From the NCBI GenBank assembly GCA_011389895.1, contig JAABTN010000003.1, forward strand, positions 1 through 64,000: a stretch of DNA of 64,000 nt, written 5' to 3'. Source of the DNA: Maritimibacter sp. Lineage in GTDB: Bacteria; Pseudomonadota; Alphaproteobacteria; Rhodobacterales; Rhodobacteraceae. The translations under genes were made by a program, and so were the position numbers. The notes beneath the pieces are model-generated. The model ran no database searches, was not told the origin of the DNA, and was given only the letters and a program-made list of their open reading frames with translations. Within the stretch, counting starts at the first letter, position 1; each line of letters begins with the position of its first letter. Below, in pieces: positions 10,870 through 22,003 of the stretch.

Positions 10870-12016
10870 CTGGCGGCTTGGCGGCTTTGGCCTTTATGTC
10901 CATTGGCCTTTCTGCGCCGCCAAGTGCCCCTATTGCGATTTCAACAGCCACGTCTCGTCCTCGATCAACCAAGATGACTGGCTGACCGCCTATATCGCCG
11001 AAATTGACCGGGTCGCCCACGAAACGCCCGGACGCGTGTTGAACAGTCTCTATTTTGGCGGAGGAACCCCCTCCTTGATGGAGCCTCGCTTGGTCGACGC
11101 CGTCATTGACCGCGCCCTGTCCCATTGGACCCCGGCCAATGACATCGAAATCACGTTGGAAGCCAACCCATCCTCTGTCGAAGCGGCGCGCTTCGCGGGC
11201 TACCGGTCGGCGGGCGTCAACCGCGTGTCGATGGGGTTTCAGGCCCTGAACGACACCGACCTGAAACGTCTCGGGCGTCTGCATGACGTCAAGACCGCGA
11301 TGAAGGCGCTCGACACCGCGCGCGGCGTGTTCGACCGCATCAATTTTGACCTGATCTATGCAAGACAAGATCAATCCCTGGCGGATTGGGAAGCCGAGCT
11401 AACCCATGCCATTGATCTCGGCCCCGATCACATGTCGCTTTATCAACTTACCATCGAAGACGGCACGGCCTTTGGCGAACGGTTCGCGCGGGGCAAGCTT
11501 GGCGGATTGCCAACCGAAGATCTCGGGGCCGACATGTTCTTTCTCACCCAGACGCTGACCGAAGCCGCCGGGCTCTCGGCTTACGAGGTGTCAAACCACG
11601 CCCGCCCAGGGGAAGAGAGCCGTCACAATCTTATTTACTGGTCCGGGGGTGATTACGCCGGTATCGGGCCCGGCGCCCACGGGCGTCTGACCCTGAACAA
11701 TGCGCGCTATGCCACGTCGACCGCGCTGTCGCCTACCGCATGGCTGTCAGATGTCACAAACGGACGCGGTGAGGCGGCGCGAGATCGCCTTTCTCGTCGA
11801 GATCACGCCGGGGAGTACCTGATGATGGCCCTGAGGACGACCAGGGGGCTTGATCTGAGCCGCTTTGACGACATCTCGCCGGACCCCATTAAACCATTTA
11901 AAATCAATATGTTAAAAGATCACAACCTGCTCCGGGAAGATCAGGGCTTCCTGATCGCCACGCGGGAAGGTCGCGCGGTGTTGAACGCGATCATAACCGA
12001 GCTTTTGCCAGATTAA
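10859..12016 (+). CDS. hemW: Radical SAM heme chaperone HemW (coproporphyrinogen oxidase-like)
   Basis: YVHWPFCAAKCPYCDFNSH (CX3CX2C), LYFGGGTPSLM. TTG start at 10859 inferred ([19 protein letters not shown]). Confidence 0.9.
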   Translation: MTDDWRLGGFGLYVHWPFCAAKCPYCDFNSHVSSSINQDDWLTAYIAEIDRVAHETPGRVLNSLYFGGGTPSLMEPRLVDAVIDRALSHWTPANDIEITLEANPSSVEAARFAGYRSAGVNRVSMGFQALNDTDLKRLGRLHDVKTAMKALDTARGVFDRINFDLIYARQDQSLADWEAELTHAIDLGPDHMSLYQLTIEDGTAFGERFARGKLGGLPTEDLGADMFFLTQTLTEAAGLSAYEVSNHARPGEESRHNLIYWSGGDYAGIGPGAHGRLTLNNARYATSTALSPTAWLSDVTNGRGEAARDRLSRRDHAGEYLMMALRTTRGLDLSRFDDISPDPIKPFKINMLKDHNLLREDQGFLIATREGRAVLNAIITELLPD

Positions 12017-12912
12017 TCACCATCACCCAGATACCGGCACAGGTCATCAAGCTGATCAAGGTTGTCGTAGCGGATCGTGACCGCCCCCGCCTGCCCGCCA
12101 GGCTTGTGATCAATCGAAACCTTCATGCCCAACGTTGCCCCAAGCGCCTTTTCCAGCGCGACGGTATCGGCATCCTTTTCGCCCTTTTGGCGTGAGGTAG
12201 AGCCCTTTTTCTGACCCATCCCCTCTTTCGCAAGCCGCTCGATCTCGCGCACCGAAAGCGCGCTTCCAATCGCATGTTTGGCAAGCTTCACGGGATCATC
12301 CGACGTGATCATCGCACGCGCGGCCCCCGCGGACAGCTTCCCATCCCGAACGTATTCAAGCACTTCGGCGGGAAGGTTCAGAAGCCGCATCATGTTGGCG
12401 ATATGCGACCGCGATTTCCCAAGAGCATCGGCCAGCTTTTCCTGCGTATGACCGAACTTCTCCATCAGCTCCTTGTATCCCGCCGCTTCCTCGACCGCGT
12501 TCAGATCAGCGCGCTGAATGTTCTCGATGATCGCGACCTCGTAGGCCTCGGTATCATCATAATCGCGGATCAGCGCCGGAACCTCGTGCAATCGCGCCTT
12601 CTGCGCCGCGCGCCAACGGCGTTCCCCCGCAACGATTTCAAACTCATCCGCATTTTGCGGATGCGGGCGCACGATCAACGGTTGGATGATCCCCTTTTCC
12701 TTGATCGACGTCGAAAGCTCCGCCAAGGCCTCTTCCGAGAATTGGCGACGCGGCTGATCCGGGTTCGCTTTTACCTTCTCGATCGGGATCATCATATCCG
12801 GCTTGCGCGGCGCATCGGTCGTGGCAACATCGGCGTCACCTTCGGGCTGAACATCGGCCATCAGCGCCGAAAGACCACGCCCGAGACCCCGGTTTTGTTT
12901 CTTCTCTGCCAT
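12013..12912 (-). CDS. parB: Chromosome partitioning protein ParB
   Basis: NRGLGRGLSALMADV; PDQPRRQFSEEALAELSTSIKEKGIIQPLIVR; GERRWRAAQ. Confidence 0.96.
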   Translation of the reverse strand: MAEKKQNRGLGRGLSALMADVQPEGDADVATTDAPRKPDMMIPIEKVKANPDQPRRQFSEEALAELSTSIKEKGIIQPLIVRPHPQNADEFEIVAGERRWRAAQKARLHEVPALIRDYDDTEAYEVAIIENIQRADLNAVEEAAGYKELMEKFGHTQEKLADALGKSRSHIANMMRLLNLPAEVLEYVRDGKLSAGAARAMITSDDPVKLAKHAIGSALSVREIERLAKEGMGQKKGSTSRQKGEKDADTVALEKALGATLGMKVSIDHKPGGQAGAVTIRYDNLDQLDDLCRYLGDGD

Positions 12913-12921
12913 CTTGCCTCC

Positions 12922-13701
12922 TCAGCCCGCTTTCGCGGTCAATTCCTGTGCCAGCGCGATATATGCCTGGCTGCCTTTCGAGACCGGGTCATAGGTGATG
13001 ACCGGCATCGCGAATGACGGCGCCTCGCTCACCCGCACATTGCGGGGAATGACTGTCTTGAACACAAGCTCACCCAGCGTATCACGCGCATCCGCTTCGA
13101 CCTGTTGGGCAAGCCTGTTGCGCATGTCATGCATCGTCAGAACGACACCTTCGATCCGCAAGCGTGGATTTGCCGCCTCGCGGACCTCGCGGATGGTGAG
13201 CATCAGCTGGCTAAGACCTTCGAGCGCGAAAAATTCGGATTGAAGCGGGATCAGCACCGAATGGCTCGCAACCAGCGCGTTCACGGTGAGAAGGTTCAAG
13301 GACGGCGGACAATCAATCAGCACGAAATCGAACCCGAGCGCCAAAGCTTCATGCGCGCGCAGGGCGTCATGCAGAAGATGCGACCGCTTTTCATTCGCCA
13401 CAAGCTCGATATCAGCCGAGGACAGATCGGTGGTCGCAGGCGCGATAAAGAGCCGCTCGACCTCGGTCGGAATCACAACATCTTGTATCGGCGTCTCTTC
13501 CAACAACAAATCATAGGTGGTTAACGCGCGGTCCTGCGGCTCGATGCCAAGCCCGGTTGACGCGTTCCCCTGCGGATCCAGATCAACGACCAAAACCTTG
13601 TCCCCGGCCAAAGCAAGGGCTGCGGCAAGGTTGATGGCCGTGGTGGTTTTGCCGACCCCGCCCTTCTGATTGGTAATCGCGATGATTTTTGGATCAGACA
13701 C
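12922..13701 (-). CDS. parA: Chromosome partitioning ATPase ParA (Soj)
   Basis: [29 protein letters not shown] (deviant Walker A). GTG start at 13701 overlaps the end of rsmG by 8 bp. Confidence 0.95.
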   Translation of the reverse strand: MSDPKIIAITNQKGGVGKTTTAINLAAALALAGDKVLVVDLDPQGNASTGLGIEPQDRALTTYDLLLEETPIQDVVIPTEVERLFIAPATTDLSSADIELVANEKRSHLLHDALRAHEALALGFDFVLIDCPPSLNLLTVNALVASHSVLIPLQSEFFALEGLSQLMLTIREVREAANPRLRIEGVVLTMHDMRNRLAQQVEADARDTLGELVFKTVIPRNVRVSEAPSFAMPVITYDPVSKGSQAYIALAQELTAKAG

Positions 13702-14314
13702 GCTCGATCTCTCCGATTCTGAGGATAACGGCTTCGGGGTGGGTTCTGCTCCGTATCTTATCGGCCCGGAACGACCACGTTTCAAGCGCTTCCTTCAGTT
13801 CCGAGTCATGTTCCGCCCCTTTTGGGAAAAGAGCAACACCGCCTGGCGCAAGGTGCGGTTCGGCAAGCTCCAAAAGCTTTGGAAGCGGGGCGAGCGCGCG
13901 GGCAGAAACAACATCTGCCGACAGGGGTTCAACCGCTTCGATCCGCTCCGCGATCACCGACCCTGAAACCCCGGTCTCGCGAAGCACGGTGCGCAAAAAC
14001 GTTGCCTTTCGCAGGTCCGATTCAACACAGGTCACCGAAAGGTCCGGGTTTCGCTCTGCGGCCAGGATGGCGATGACAACACCGGGAAATCCACCGCCCG
14101 TCCCGAGATCAACCCATTCATGGGCATCGTCGGGGCCCAGGGCAAGGATTTGCGTCGAATCAAGGATATGACGCGACCAGAAATCATCAAGCGTGCTTCG
14201 GGACACCAGATTGATCTTCGGCGTCCACTTCCGCAGGAGGGCTTCATAAGTCTTCAGCCGCTCCAATGTTTCACGTGAAACATTTTCCTGCGCGGCAAAC
14301 TCTTCGGCCCTCAT
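13694..14314 (-). CDS. rsmG: 16S rRNA (guanine527-N7)-methyltransferase RsmG
   Basis: [19 protein letters not shown]; position between parA and mnmG. Confidence 0.94.
14267..14282. promoter_or_regulatory. parS centromere site (perfect TGTTTCACGTGAAACA)
   Basis: Exact 16-bp palindrome read from the sequence, inside the rsmG 5' coding region, with parAB ~0.6-2 kb away. Confidence 0.92.
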
Positions 14315-16185
14315 GCGCTCCGCGCTCGGCCAGCCTGACGCAGTTTCGCAAGGATCAGCGTCAGCGCAGCTGGTGTCATTCCCTCGATCCGACCGGCCTG
14401 CGCCAGCGTTTCTGGCCTTGCCCGCGACAGCTTTCCGGTCAGCTCTGTGGTCAGCCCGTCCAGCCCGGAATAGTCAAAATCTTCGGGAATCGCATGGCCT
14501 TCGTCGCGCTGCATCGATTCCACTTCCCGCTTCTGCCGCTCGATATACTTGGCATAAAGCGCGTCCTTGGCGATCTGCGCCCGTGTGTTAGAATCAATCC
14601 CCGTAAAACCCGGGTCCAGTGCAGCCACGTTTTCAAACGTCAGGCCGGGGATCGACAATAGGTCGTAGGCCGTGCGACGGGTTCCATCTTCGCGCACCTT
14701 TCCCCCGACCGCGTTGACCTGTTGCGGGGTAAAGGTTTGTGCAGACAAAGCTTTGGTCGCCGTGTTCAAGCGTGCCATCTTCTCCTCGAACGCCACCCGG
14801 CGCACGTCGGAAATGGCCCCAAGCTCAATCGCCAAGGGGGTCAGCCGCTGATCCGCGTTATCGGCACGCAACGCCAGCCTGAATTCCGCGCGCGAGGTGA
14901 ACATGCGATAGGGCTCGGTCACTCCGCGCGTTACCAGGTCGTCAATCATCACCCCGATGTAGGATGTCGCGCGCGAGAATATGACACTCTCAAACCCACG
15001 CGCCGCGCGGGCCGCGTTTGTGCCTGCGACCAAACCTTGTGCCGCAGCTTCCTCATATCCAGTGGTGCCGTTGATCTGACCCGCTAGATATAGTCCGGAC
15101 ACGGCGCGAAGCTCCAACGTCTGCCGAAGCGCGCGGGGATCGACGTAGTCGTATTCAATCGCATAGCCCGGCTGCCGGATCGTGACATCCTCAAGCCCGC
15201 GAATCGATCGCACATAAGCTTCTTGCACATCAATCGGAAGCGAGGTGGAAATACCGTTCGGGTAAACCGTATCGTCGTCCAACCCTTCCGGCTCCAAAAA
15301 CACCTGGTGCGATGTCTTCTCGGCAAAACGCACCACCTTATCCTCGATCGACGGGCAATACCGGGGGCCGACCCCATCTATATGCCCGCCATACATCGCC
15401 GATTTCAAAAGGTTCGCGGTGATGATTTCATGTGTTCGCGCATTGGTATGCGTGATTCCGCACGAAACCTGTCGCGCAAAGGGTGTCTTGTTGAGGAATG
15501 AGAACATCTCGGGTGCTTCATCGCCCGGCTGGGCGTCGAGCACATCCCAGTTGATCGTGCTTCCATCCAGCCGCGGGGGCGTCCCGGTTTTCAACCGCCC
15601 GAGTGGCAGGCCAAAATCATCAATCTGTTGCGCGAGCTTGACCGAGGGACGGTCGCCCATACGCCCACCTTCGCGCCGCTCTTCGCCGATATGGATCACC
15701 CCGCGCAGGAAGGTTCCCGTGGTCAGAACCACGGCCTGCGCCGAAAGCTCTGAGCCATCGCTAAGCCTAAGGCCTGTAACCGCGCCTTCGCGGAGGAGAA
15801 ATTCCGTCGCTTCCCCTTCTATGATCGAGAGCCCCTCAGCCGCCGCAACAATCTCGCCCATCGCAGCGCGGTAAAGCTTGCGATCTGCTTGCGCACGTGG
15901 GCCTTGAACCGCGGGGCCTTTGGAGCGGTTGAGCAGGCGAAATTGAATCCCCGCCTTGTCCGCCGCACGGCCCATCGCGCCGTCGAGCGCATCGACTTCG
16001 CGCACGAGGTGGCCTTTGCCAAGCCCGCCAATGGCCGGATTGCAGGACATGACGCCCAGATCGCTACGCCGAAGCGTGATCAGCGCGGTGCGCGCGCCGT
16101 TGCGGGCGGCGGCCAAGGCAGCCTCCGCACCAGCGTGGCCGCCACCGACCACGATCACATCGAATGAATGTTTCACGTGAAACAC
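14311..16185 (-). CDS. mnmG: tRNA uridine-5-carboxymethylaminomethyl modification enzyme MnmG (GidA)
   Basis: [43 protein letters not shown] start. Confidence 0.96.
16169..16184. promoter_or_regulatory. parS centromere site (perfect TGTTTCACGTGAAACA)
   Basis: Exact 16-bp palindrome overlapping the first codons of mnmG (encodes -FHVKH). Confidence 0.92.
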
Positions 16186-16200
16186 TCCTCTCGCAAACGC

Positions 16201-17472
16201 CTATTTCCCAAGGCAGAAACTGGCGAAAATTTCGTCCAGAACCATTTCAACATCAACCCGACCGACAAGCGAATCAAGCGCGCGGATCGCGGACCAAAGT
16301 TCTTCCGCCGCCAATTCCGACCGCTCAGCCCCGCTCTCTACCTCGATTCGAGCTGTTTCCAAAGCCTCCAACGCGTGGGTCATGGAATGCCGATGCCGGG
16401 CACGGATGGCGGTGCCCGCCCCGGACGCACGGTTCGAGAGAATCTCGGTCACCTGGGCGACGAGATAATCGATCCCCTCACCTGTCTTGCCAGAAACCCC
16501 ACGCCCTGTCAGGTCAGCCTTCCCTTCGACCACGATATCGCCATCTAGCGGATCGAAATCAAGCGGCTCTTCGGACAACAGGAAAATTCTCAGATCCGCT
16601 GCCATCGCGCGTTCGCGGGCGCGGGCGACGCCAAGCTGTTCGATCCGGTCTTCGCTATCACGCAAACCCGCGGTGTCGAGCATGGTGACAGGCAGGCCCT
16701 GAAGATCCATCCGCACCTCGATCACATCCCGGGTCGTGCCCGCGATGTCCGATGTAATCGCCGCTTCGCGCCCCGCCAGCGCGTTCAGGAGGGTTGATTT
16801 ACCCGCGTTCGGCGCGCCGACAATCGCGACCTCGAACCCTTCGCGAATCCGCTCGGCCACCTTTGATCCCTCCACCTCGCGCAGAAGGCCGTGTTGCGTC
16901 CGGTTCAAGAGATCGAGGACTTCCGGCGACACATCGACCGGCACGTCTTCGTCGGCAAAGTCGATGGTTGCCTCAAGCAATGCCACAGAACGGATCAGAT
17001 CACTTCGCCAGCTTTCGGCTTTTGCGCCAAGCGAGCCTGAAAGCACGCGCAATGCCTGCCGTCTTTGTGCTTCCGTCTCGGCGTCGATGAGATCCGCAAG
17101 ACCTTCGATCTGGGTCAGATCAAGCCGCTCGTTTTCAAGCGCGCGTCGGGTGAATTCCCCCGGTTCAGCCATGCGAAGACCGGGAAGCCGCGACAGCTCA
17201 TCCAGCAGCGCGGTGATAACCGCCGTCGATCCGTGCACTTGAAATTCGACAACATCTTCGCCGGTAAAGCTGTGATTGGCTTCGAACCGAAGCACCAGTG
17301 CTTCGTCAATCGGCCCATCGCGCCCCTTGAGAACACGAAGCGCGCATGTTCTCGGGTCCGGCAGACGCCCCACGATCTGTTGACCAGCCGCGATCGCTTC
17401 CGGGCCCGACACCCGGATCACGGCCACGCCGGCCTTGCCACGCGAGGTGGCCTGGGCGAAGATCGTATCCAT
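16201..17472 (-). CDS. mnmE: tRNA modification GTPase MnmE (TrmE)
   Basis: [41 protein letters not shown]-terminal FCLGK. Confidence 0.96.
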
Positions 17473-17499: not shown

Positions 17500-18768
17500 T
17501 TACGCGTTCATCGAATCGAAGAACTCGTCGTTCGTCTTGGTCTGCTTGAGCTTCGAGATCAGGAATTCGATGGCATCCGTGGTGCCCATCGGGTTCAGGA
17601 TACGCCGCAAGACATAGGTTTTTTGCAGATCCTTCGAGCTGACCAAAAGCTCTTCTTTCCGCGTGCCCGACTTGATGATGTCAATGGCCGGGAAAATACG
17701 CTTGTCCGACACCTTGCGGTCCAGAACCAGCTCGGAGTTGCCGGTGCCTTTGAATTCTTCAAAGATGACCTCGTCCATCCGCGACCCGGTGTCGATCAGG
17801 GCGGTCGCGATGATGGTCAGCGACCCGCCCTCTTCGATATTACGGGCCGCGCCGAAGAACCGCTTCGGGCGTTGCAGCGCATTTGCATCGACACCGCCGG
17901 TCAGAACCTTGCCCGACGATGGCACCGTGGTGTTGAACGCGCGGCCAAGACGGGTGATCGAGTCGAGCAGGATGACCACGTCACGCTTGTGTTCGACCAG
18001 ACGCTTTGCCTTCTCGATGATCATTTCCGACACGGCCACGTGGCGCGAGGCGGGTTCATCAAAGGTCGATGCCACCACTTCGCCCTTCACCGAGCGTTTC
18101 ATATCGGTGACTTCCTCCGGCCGTTCGTCGATCAGGAGAACGATCAGATATACCTCAGGGTGGTTGACCGAGATGGATTGCGCGATGTTCTGCAAGAGAA
18201 CGGTTTTACCGGTGCGCGGCGGCGCGACGATAAGCGAGCGTTGGCCTTTCCCGATCGGGGCGACCAGATCGATGATCCGGGCCGAGCGGTCCTTTGACGT
18301 CGGATCGTCAAGCTCCATCTTCAAACGCTCATCCGGGTGAAGCGGCGTGAGGTTGTCAAAGGCGACTTTGTGCTTGGCCGTCTCTGGGTCGGTGAAGTTG
18401 ATCTTCTCGACCTTCGTGATGGCAAAGTAGTTCTCGCTTTCCGCCGGTGCAGAGATTACGCCTTCCACCGTATCGCCGGTGCGCAGCGAGTGTTTCCGGA
18501 TCATGTCCGGCGACATGTAGATGTCGTCCGGGCCCGGAAGATAGTTTGCCTCGGGCGAGCGCAGGAAGCCAAAGCCGTCTTGCAGCACCTCAAGCACCCC
18601 GTCCCCGCCGATCTCCCACCCATCCTCGGCGCGTGCCTGCAGGATCTGGAACATCATCTCGCCCTTGCGCATCGTCGAGGCGTTTTCGATCTCAAGCTCT
18701 TCGGCAAGGGCCAGAAGGTCCTTGGGACTCTGAGCTTTGAGTTCAGACAGGTTCAAACGTTCAGACAT
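17500..18768 (-). CDS. rho: Transcription termination factor Rho
   Basis: [55 protein letters not shown] at 18768 chosen over the extended ORF. Confidence 0.96.
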
Positions 18769-18852
18769 GGGAATCACCGGACGACAACGCGAAATGGCGT
18801 GGTCTTGTGTTGGGGATGGAGGTACTTCGGTCGGACGACCGCTTGGGGCGTG

Positions 18853-18881
18853 GATATAGGCCCCCAAAGGGTTCAAGTCAA
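18853..18881 (-). promoter_or_regulatory. Putative sigma70-type promoter of rho
   Basis: Minus strand TTGACT - 17 nt - TATATC, about 85-110 nt upstream of the rho ATG. Confidence 0.6.
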
Positions 18882-19301
18882 TCTGGCTGTTCCAAGCAGG
18901 ATGTCAAAGCGATCTCTGCCTGCCCTACCCAATAATAAAAAAAGAAATTTTAAAAGGATTTTGAAGATTGTAGGGCCTGTGCACGGTGGGGATTATCGGA
19001 TTTTGCCCCTTTTTCCCACAGCACGAATGAGAGTGGGACAAAGTTCGAGGGAAACAGGGAAACGCAAGGAAAAACATTTTATGTCAAAGGTTTAGAATGA
19101 TCGGGCTTGTGGATGTCCTGGTGGACTATCCTGTGCATCCGAGGCTTCGTCCCAAGCCGGTGGAAAAGCGCCCCCACATGTGGAACCAGCGTGGGATGAA
19201 ATGACGACAACCGGGCCATCAGTGGGGATTCCCATTTTCTCCCGTCTGGCGCACACTCACGTAAGCTGGAACAAACACGGATTTTCCACAGGGTTCCCAA
19301 C
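18882..19301. other. oriC: Candidate chromosomal origin of replication (oriC)
   Basis: Non-coding gap between divergent rho and maf. 18931-18970 is 34/40 A+T. DnaA-box-like 9-mers: TTTCCCACA 19012-19020, TGTGGATGT 19108-19116, TGTGCATCC 19132-19140, GGTGGAAAA 19159-19167, TGTGGAACC 19179-19187, TTTTCCACA 19282-19290. Flanks match the alphaproteobacterial origin neighbourhood. Confidence 0.7.
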
Positions 19302-19901
19302 ATGGCCACTGATCTTATCCTGGCGTCAGGCTCCAAAATTCGGGCCGAGCTTTTGCGAAATGCCGGGCTTTCGTTCGAAATTCTGCCCGGTCGGGTGGAT
19401 GAAGCCGCGATTCGCGCCGGGCTTGATGCAGAACAGGCATCGCCGCGCGACATTGCCGACACGCTGGCGGAATACAAGGCGCGCAAGACCGGGATGAAGC
19501 GCCCCGAGGCGCTGGTTCTCGGCTGTGATCAGGTTGCCGCGCTGGGCAAAACCGTGCTGGTCAAACCGGAAACGCCGGAGGAGGCGCGCGATCAACTCAC
19601 CCGCCTGTCCGGTCAGACCCATCAGCTTTTGTCCGCTGCCGTGATCTATCATCAGGCAGAGCCGATCTGGCGCCACGTCGGTGTCGTGCACATGACGATG
19701 CGGGATCTGAGTGCGGGGTATATTGACGCGTACGTTGCGCGAAACTGGGAGTCGATCCGACATTCCGTGGGGGCCTACAAGCTTGAGGAAGAAGGCGTTC
19801 GCCTTTTCACACGGGTTCAGGGAAGCTATTTCGATGTGCTTGGCTTGCCGATGACAGAGCTTTTGTCCTATCTCATTGCGCGAGGGGAGTTGCGCGTATG
19901 A
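19302..19901 (+). CDS. maf: Maf-family nucleoside triphosphate pyrophosphatase
   Basis: LILASGSKIRAELLRNAGLSFEILPGRVDE; SVGAYKLEEEGVRLF. Confidence 0.92.
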   Translation: MATDLILASGSKIRAELLRNAGLSFEILPGRVDEAAIRAGLDAEQASPRDIADTLAEYKARKTGMKRPEALVLGCDQVAALGKTVLVKPETPEEARDQLTRLSGQTHQLLSAAVIYHQAEPIWRHVGVVHMTMRDLSAGYIDAYVARNWESIRHSVGAYKLEEEGVRLFTRVQGSYFDVLGLPMTELLSYLIARGELRV

Positions 19902-20734
19902 GTTCACCTAGTATCCCGCTTGCCGCCATTGTGATGCCGCCCGGGGGGACAAGCGCCCTTCCGCGCGTGATGGACTACTGGTTCAAGGTAACGGGGCTTT
20001 CGGGCTGTTACGTGCCGCTTGAGGTCGAATTCAACGATCTTGAAGCGGTTCTGACGACCTTGCCAAGGATCGGGTTTGTCGGGCTGCACATCGCGCCCGC
20101 CTATCAAAAAGCCATGTTGGCGCATGCCGATATCATCACCGACCGGGCGGCGCTGATGGCTGGGGCGAACACCATCATTTTTCGCAAGGACGGGAAGCTG
20201 CATGGGGATAACACCGATGGCTATGGCTTTGTCGAAAACATCCGCCAAACCATTCCTGACTGGGACCCCAAACTGGGTCCGGCGGCCATTTTCGGGGCCG
20301 GGCAATCGGCCCGCGTGATCATTGCCGCGCTGCTTGAGGTCGGGGTTGAAGAGATCCGGGTGGCGAGCCGGACGCGCCCCAAGACCGACCAGTTGCGGCA
20401 GGAGTTTGGGACACGGATCAAGGTTTATGACTGGGTCAAGGCCGGGAACCTTGCCGATGGGGCCGCGATGGTGGTGAACGCCACGCCGCTTGGCCGGCAG
20501 GGGATGCCGGAGTTTCGCGTGCCGCTTGATGGTCTGCGCCCGGGGTCCGTGGCCTGTGATCTGACCCTTGATCCGCCGCATACGCGGTTTCTTCGCCAAG
20601 CGCATGACTATGGAAGCCATGCCATCGACGGGTCTGGCATGATGTTGTGCCAAGCCGCGCCAAGTTTCGAGCGCTGGTTCGGGGCACGCCCGCCAACGGA
20701 TGACGCCGCGCGGGCAGTCTTGTGGGCAACATGA
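19898..20734 (+). CDS. aroE: Shikimate dehydrogenase
   Basis: [61 protein letters not shown]; gene order maf-aroE-coaE. Confidence 0.85.
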
Positions 20735-21321
20735 CCTTTGTGCTTGGGCTCACAGGGTCGATCGGGATGGGGAAATCCACCACGGCGCAGATGTTTGCCG
20801 ACGAAGGTGTGCCCGTCTGGGATGCCGACGCGGCGGTTCACCGGCTCTATGCCCCGGGCGGCGCGGCGGTCGAGCCGATCCGGGCGCTTTGTCCCGAGGC
20901 GATCGTGGAGGGCGCGGTTGATCGCGGGGCGTTGAAGGCATGGATGGCCCGCGACCCTTCGGCCCTGAAACAGATCGAGGCGATCGTTCATCCGCTGGTG
21001 GCCAAGGATCGGCAGGCATTTCTCGCCGCAACGGACGCCGACATCGCCCTTCTCGACATCCCGCTGTTGTTCGAGGGCGGCGGTGGGACCGGCATGGACG
21101 CGGTCGTGGTCGTATCCGTTCCCGAAGACGTGCAACGCGACCGGGTCTTGGCGCGCGGCAGCATGGACGCGGCCACGTTTCAAACCATCCTCGCCAAACA
21201 GATGCCGGACGCGGAAAAGCGCAGGCGCGCCGATTACGTGATCGAGACCTTGACGCTTGAGGCCGCCCGCGCCTCTGTGCGATCGGTGCTGGACGACATT
21301 CGGGGGAAGATAGATGCGTGA
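20731..21321 (+). CDS. coaE: Dephospho-CoA kinase
   Basis: [41 protein letters not shown] overlap with aroE. Confidence 0.94.
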
Positions 21322-22003
21322 AATTGTCATGGACACGGAAACCACCGGCTTTGACCCGAAGACCGGGGACCGGATGGTCGAGATCGGCTGTGTCGAGCTA
21401 ATGAACCACATGCCGACAGGCCGGACCTATCACCAATACATCAACCCGAAACGCGACATGCCCGAAGGTGCGTTCAAGGTGCATGGGCTGTCGGAGGATT
21501 TTCTGCGCGACTACCCCGTGTTCGAAGAGGTGGCGGATGCGTTTCTCGATTTCATCGGGGATGCGAAGCTGGTCATTCACAACGCGAATTTCGATGTTCC
21601 GTTTCTGAATGCCGAGCTTGGGTGGTGTAATCGCCCGCAAATCCTGATGGATCAGGCCATCGACACGCTCATTATAGCCCGCAAGAAATACCCCGGCGCG
21701 GGCAATTCGCTTGACGCGCTTTGCCGCCGGTTCGGCATCGACAATTCACATCGCGAGCTGCACGGCGCGCTGCTTGATAGCGAAATCTTGGCCGAGGTGT
21801 ATCTTGAGCTTATCGGGGGGCGGCAGCCCGGGCTTGTTCTCGGGGGCATCCGTTCAACGGACGACACGACCGAGGTTGAAGACACCTGGCGTCCGCGTCC
21901 GCGTGCCACGCCGCTTCCTTCCCGTCTGACCGCGGGTGAGGCTGTGGTGCATCGCGAGTTTATCGAGGAGCTTGGCGAAAACGCCCTTTGGAAAAGGGCG
22001 TAA
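21314..22003 (+). CDS. dnaQ: DNA polymerase III epsilon subunit
   Basis: [56 protein letters not shown]. Confidence 0.95.

Follow-up and report, generated by a model that had tools for sequence, protein, structure and literature searches.

The rho–maf intergenic region of a Rhodobacteraceae genome as its very probable chromosomal replication origin

Among alphaproteobacteria, the origin of Caulobacter crescentus (Cori) has been mapped by experiment and is described as a region of ∼400 bp (PMC1914354) with a 40-bp A+T-rich region and five DnaA boxes, directly flanked by hemE and a COG1806 gene. For the Rhodobacteraceae, Ori-Finder predictions of oriC were obtained for 101 closed genomes, the criteria being a skew minimum, DnaA boxes, a local GC minimum and proximity to parAB (PMC6699656), and a term search of the text of that paper yielded no mention of maf and no intergenic motif. 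In Bacillus subtilis, the basal unwinding system consists of DnaA boxes together with DnaA-trios (PMC6669920, PMC8287927). Here, a stretch of 64,000 nucleotides of a Rhodobacteraceae draft genome (the window) was analysed, and we conclude with a probability of about 0.95 that chromosome replication in this bacterium begins in the rho–maf gap. This had been proposed in the initial annotation and is borne out by a break in GC skew, DnaA boxes at positions conserved across 30 relatives, a profile match found once in the genome, nearby parS sites and a motif shared with the interval at hemE/COG1806; none of the contrary outcomes named there beforehand was seen among those open to computation. The origin is very probably an ordinary one of an already known kind, at the position expected for alphaproteobacteria, and it resembles the Ori-Finder oriCs of the family in the kinds of criteria applied rather than in compared positions. 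With it, the origin position of the draft genome is fixed.

Matches to rho obtained by tblastn in 29 relatives began at residues 1–5, and as the conserved rho start is the methionine at 18768, the oriC-bearing intergenic region, which also contains the profile match described below, extends from 18769 to 19301 (533 bp). It is non-coding, as had been noted, but ∼110 bp longer on its left side than the ∼420 bp previously given. An Rfam scan of the gap yielded no matches at E ≤ 1, and an RNA element in it was ruled out on this basis. The gap separates rho (17500–18768, minus strand; Pfam PF07497, PF00006 and PF07498) from maf (19302–19901, plus strand; PF02545). Beyond rho, mnmE, mnmG, rsmG, parA and parB occupy 12013–17472 on the minus strand, with parAB at 12013–13785, and beyond maf, aroE, coaE and dnaQ occupy 19898–22003 on the plus strand. 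The Pfam assignments agree with the names already given to the genes of both arms. Outward transcription over several kb had likewise been stated for both sides; it holds for the left arm as far as 12013, but since secB (named by eye from its reading frame without a Pfam scan) lies on the minus strand, outward transcription of the right arm ends at ∼22003.

This is the same neighbourhood as that of Cori, and five box-like 9-mers and an A+T tract are likewise found here. However, hemE and the COG1806 gene flank Cori directly, whereas the immediate flanks here are rho and maf and hemE is situated on another contig. The Caulobacter-like arrangement claimed earlier thus stands for the next genes outward but not for hemE and COG1806, which are absent from the immediate flanks in this family; these two genes mark the position of a Cori-type oriC and are not a functional requirement. 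In all 30 family genomes with fetched Maf loci, this genome included, rho is divergent from maf around the interval. The hemJ gene stands beside rho in 23 of these 30, leaving ∼400 bp before maf, and is not found there in the other seven, this genome among them. A UPF0093 (hemJ) match was located on contig C68 and hemE on contig C4, so that neither gene adjoins the origin in this assembly.

Using TTATCCACA as the DnaA-box consensus for counting mismatches, five box-like 9-mers were detected in the gap at ≤ 2 mismatches. Six had been reported; the cluster itself is confirmed, and the count depends on the criterion. In dinucleotide shuffles of 18872–19301, the mean was 1.26 boxes and five were reached in 6 of 1000. 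The densest 533-bp stretch of boxes on the contig begins at 18981 and contains six, one of them inside maf, the runner-up stretch having four. Three predicted weak boxes occupy conserved positions, namely TAATCCCCA (18987–18995, minus strand), with a box at ≤ 2 mismatches in the same place and on the same strand in 21 of 29 relatives, TTTCCCACA (19012–19020, plus strand), found at ≤ 2 mismatches in 18 of 29, and ACATCCACA (19108–19116, minus strand), found in 18 of 29 at ≤ 2 mismatches and in 14 of 29 at ≤ 1. The position of TTTTCCACC (19159–19167, minus strand), detected by the mismatch scan, is not conserved among the 29 relatives. The best predicted box, TTTTCCACA (19282–19290, plus strand), located 11 bp before maf, has one mismatch, as noted before, and is the sole single-mismatch box in the gap; a single such box is not significant by itself (102 of 1000 shuffles), and this position carries a box at ≤ 2 mismatches in 12 and at ≤ 1 mismatch in 10 of the 29 relatives. 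Four of the five boxes of the gap (≤ 2 mismatches, same strand, 29 relatives) therefore sit at family-conserved box positions, and for this reason, judging from sequence, the weak boxes probably derive from conserved ones by decay or tuning. Across the 30 family rho–maf gaps, boxes at ≤ 1 mismatch occur at 6.0 per kb versus 0.18 per kb (34-fold) in control DNA, for which 1.18 Mb was taken from elsewhere on the same contig and from complete relatives. The non-coding gap hence possesses the box cluster of an alphaproteobacterial Cori-type oriC.

Such an origin also has an adjacent A+T-rich region, and here a tract at 18930–18972 is the probable DNA-unwinding element. It had been described as 34/40 A+T, and it proved to be the most A+T-rich 40-mer not only of the window but of the whole 145,760-bp contig; its A-rich block is conserved in the family. 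Profile searches and alignments defined a family-conserved single-copy core (18932–19017, plus strand) composed of an A-rich stretch, degenerate GAT repeats, a GTAGG element and DnaA boxes. The GTAGG element (18970–18974, plus strand), recognized in the family alignments, is separated by 12 bp from the first DnaA box, and the consensus from the alignment of relatives reads A-rich/GGATGATGAT-N3-GTAGG-N12-TGTGGATTA.

A sequence-only profile (R1) spanning 92 positions was built from the block around 18930–19022 of 29 relatives, with this genome excluded. It matched the 3.08-Mb assembly exactly once, even at E ≤ 10, at 18932–19017 (E = 1.3e-10). In the family, 134 of 150 genomes were matched, with one match each in all but one of the 134, and 16 of the 150 had no match at E ≤ 0.01; after dropping this genome and seven training genomes, 126 of 142 were matched. 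All 30 fetched loci from the family search lay between rho and maf. A class-wide search of 191 genomes gave several out-of-family matches near maf, and the four whose loci were read completely (L143, L146, L147 and L155) were located between hemE and a COG1806/DUF299-like gene, next to maf, where both genes were recognized by eye from translations without a domain scan. The core profile thereby matches the Cori-equivalent interval in other families, Caulobacter itself lying outside the search. In most of the sampled family genomes, the 92-position profile marks one site only, where the origin is expected, and can thus help to orient chromosomes and to estimate growth rates from peak-to-trough ratios. 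For some of the out-of-family matches (L142–L168), L142 and L145 being examples, the fetched DNA had no match to rho, maf, hemJ, aroE or mnmE; such matches may be chance or relocated origins.

Proximity to parAB and parS is a further property of Cori-type origins. An assembly-wide scan for parS at ≤ 2 mismatches gave exactly two sites, both perfect, one inside rsmG (NVSRET; 14267–14282) and one at the start of mnmG (MFHVKH; 16169–16184), which places them 4.5 and 2.6 kb, respectively, away from the gap.

In many bacteria, the origin is found beside dnaA. Here, dnaA is on the same contig ∼80 kb from the gap, and it could be argued that the origin adjoins it and that the rho–maf gap merely belongs to the same chromosome region, the more so as the chromosomes of three relatives are numbered from dnaA, which is an annotation convention only. 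However, the stretch at 98.5–102 kb showed just four boxes at ≤ 2 mismatches and no cluster, and it is near the rho–maf gap that the parS sites lie. With regard to GC skew, the cumulative minimum of the contig (C33, 145,760 bp) is at 18118, and a two-segment fit puts the best change point at ∼20 kb. As the genome is a draft of 70 contigs, skew was also followed over sampled stretches of closed relatives. For G003, both the minimum (3475899) and the change point (3477501) fall close to maf (3477853), whereas dnaA, at position 1, is ∼80 kb off the break, and skew is already positive across most of 3480–3555 kb, that is, before dnaA. In G056, the minimum (101623) and the change point (107501) precede the core element (123085), and dnaA, again at position 1, is 100–110 kb off the break. 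The change is blurred in three other relatives, G129 and G149 having a local minimum at +32 and +70 kb, respectively, and G050 showing a broad transition. The skew minimum expected of a Cori-type oriC was therefore found on the contig itself, G003 and G056 having their break at or near the equivalent gap, in keeping with the check that the initial annotation had suggested. Skew thus points to the neighbourhood of the gap and away from dnaA on account of the breaks in C33, G003 and G056, less sharply in G129, G149 and G050, but taken alone it is too coarse to single out one gap. An origin beside dnaA was ruled out from skew together with box density, and we regard it as highly improbable.

Scarcely credible is a role of the gap as nothing but a region of divergent promoters and leaders for rho and maf, with boxes and A+T tract reflecting transcription control, which would suit the divergent, adjacent position of these genes but not the core, boxes and spacing kept in the 23 of 30 relatives where hemJ intervenes between rho and the conserved part, nor the core lying beside hemE and COG1806 instead in other families, nor the skew break and parS, which a promoter does not predict. 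The promoters of two such neighbouring, divergent genes are nevertheless to be expected in the gap, and promoter and origin functions can coexist there.

The reading as an origin draws on what was computed here, namely location, skew break, conservation of boxes and core, single copy and proximity of parS; DnaA binding, an opening site and helicase loading at the gap are deduced from these features and might be envisaged as follows. DnaA would bind a short array in which most boxes are weak (18987, minus; 19012, plus; 19108, minus; 19282, plus) and could oligomerize from the box at 18987 toward the A+T-rich tract at 18930–18972, which would be opened and the helicase then loaded. Two forks would depart, one through the rho-mnmE-mnmG-rsmG-parAB side and the other through the maf-aroE-coaE-dnaQ side, and the origin, once duplicated, would be moved by ParAB through the parS sites at 2.6 and 4.5 kb.

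A CtrA site array of the Caulobacter type is absent and was ruled out. Cori has five CtrA sites, whereas a search of the gap for several TTAA-N7-TTAA sites gave a single near match with one mismatch, TTAAAAGGATTTTGA (18950–18964). The search for an IHF site ended likewise with a single 1-mismatch candidate, at 19082–19094.

The layout is similar to that of B. subtilis in that an A+T-rich stretch containing trinucleotide repeats adjoins DnaA boxes, TAG being 13 bp from the box, but the trios of B. subtilis are 3'-GAT-5', whereas the repeat letters here are 5'-GAT-3'. The canonical rule asks for three or more 3'-NAN-5' trios no further than 16 bp from a DnaA box. By this rule, 11 runs of three near a box were seen in the family versus 18.5 expected from shuffles, which is no enrichment, and in the sequence of this genome the NAN run length was 1, with no run of three near a box. 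Canonical DnaA-trios, not being above shuffles, were thus ruled out. Tandem GAT (at least two repeats) is present in 20 of 29 relatives versus 4.5% of shuffles; in this genome, the GAT repeats of the block 18932–18974 are degenerate and not in tandem. The A-rich/(GAT)2–4/GTAGG block, 12–13 bp from the first box, might conceivably be a variant unwinding element with a non-canonical reading rule for DnaA, a suggestion that we consider rather unlikely. The conserved GAT/GTAGG module itself offers a concrete sequence for studying how alphaproteobacterial origins open.

The Maf protein encoded beside the origin shared 48–64% identity with its named matches, from Roseisalinus, Ca. Rhodobacter lobularis, Palleronia, Tropicimonas and a Rhodobacteraceae MAG.
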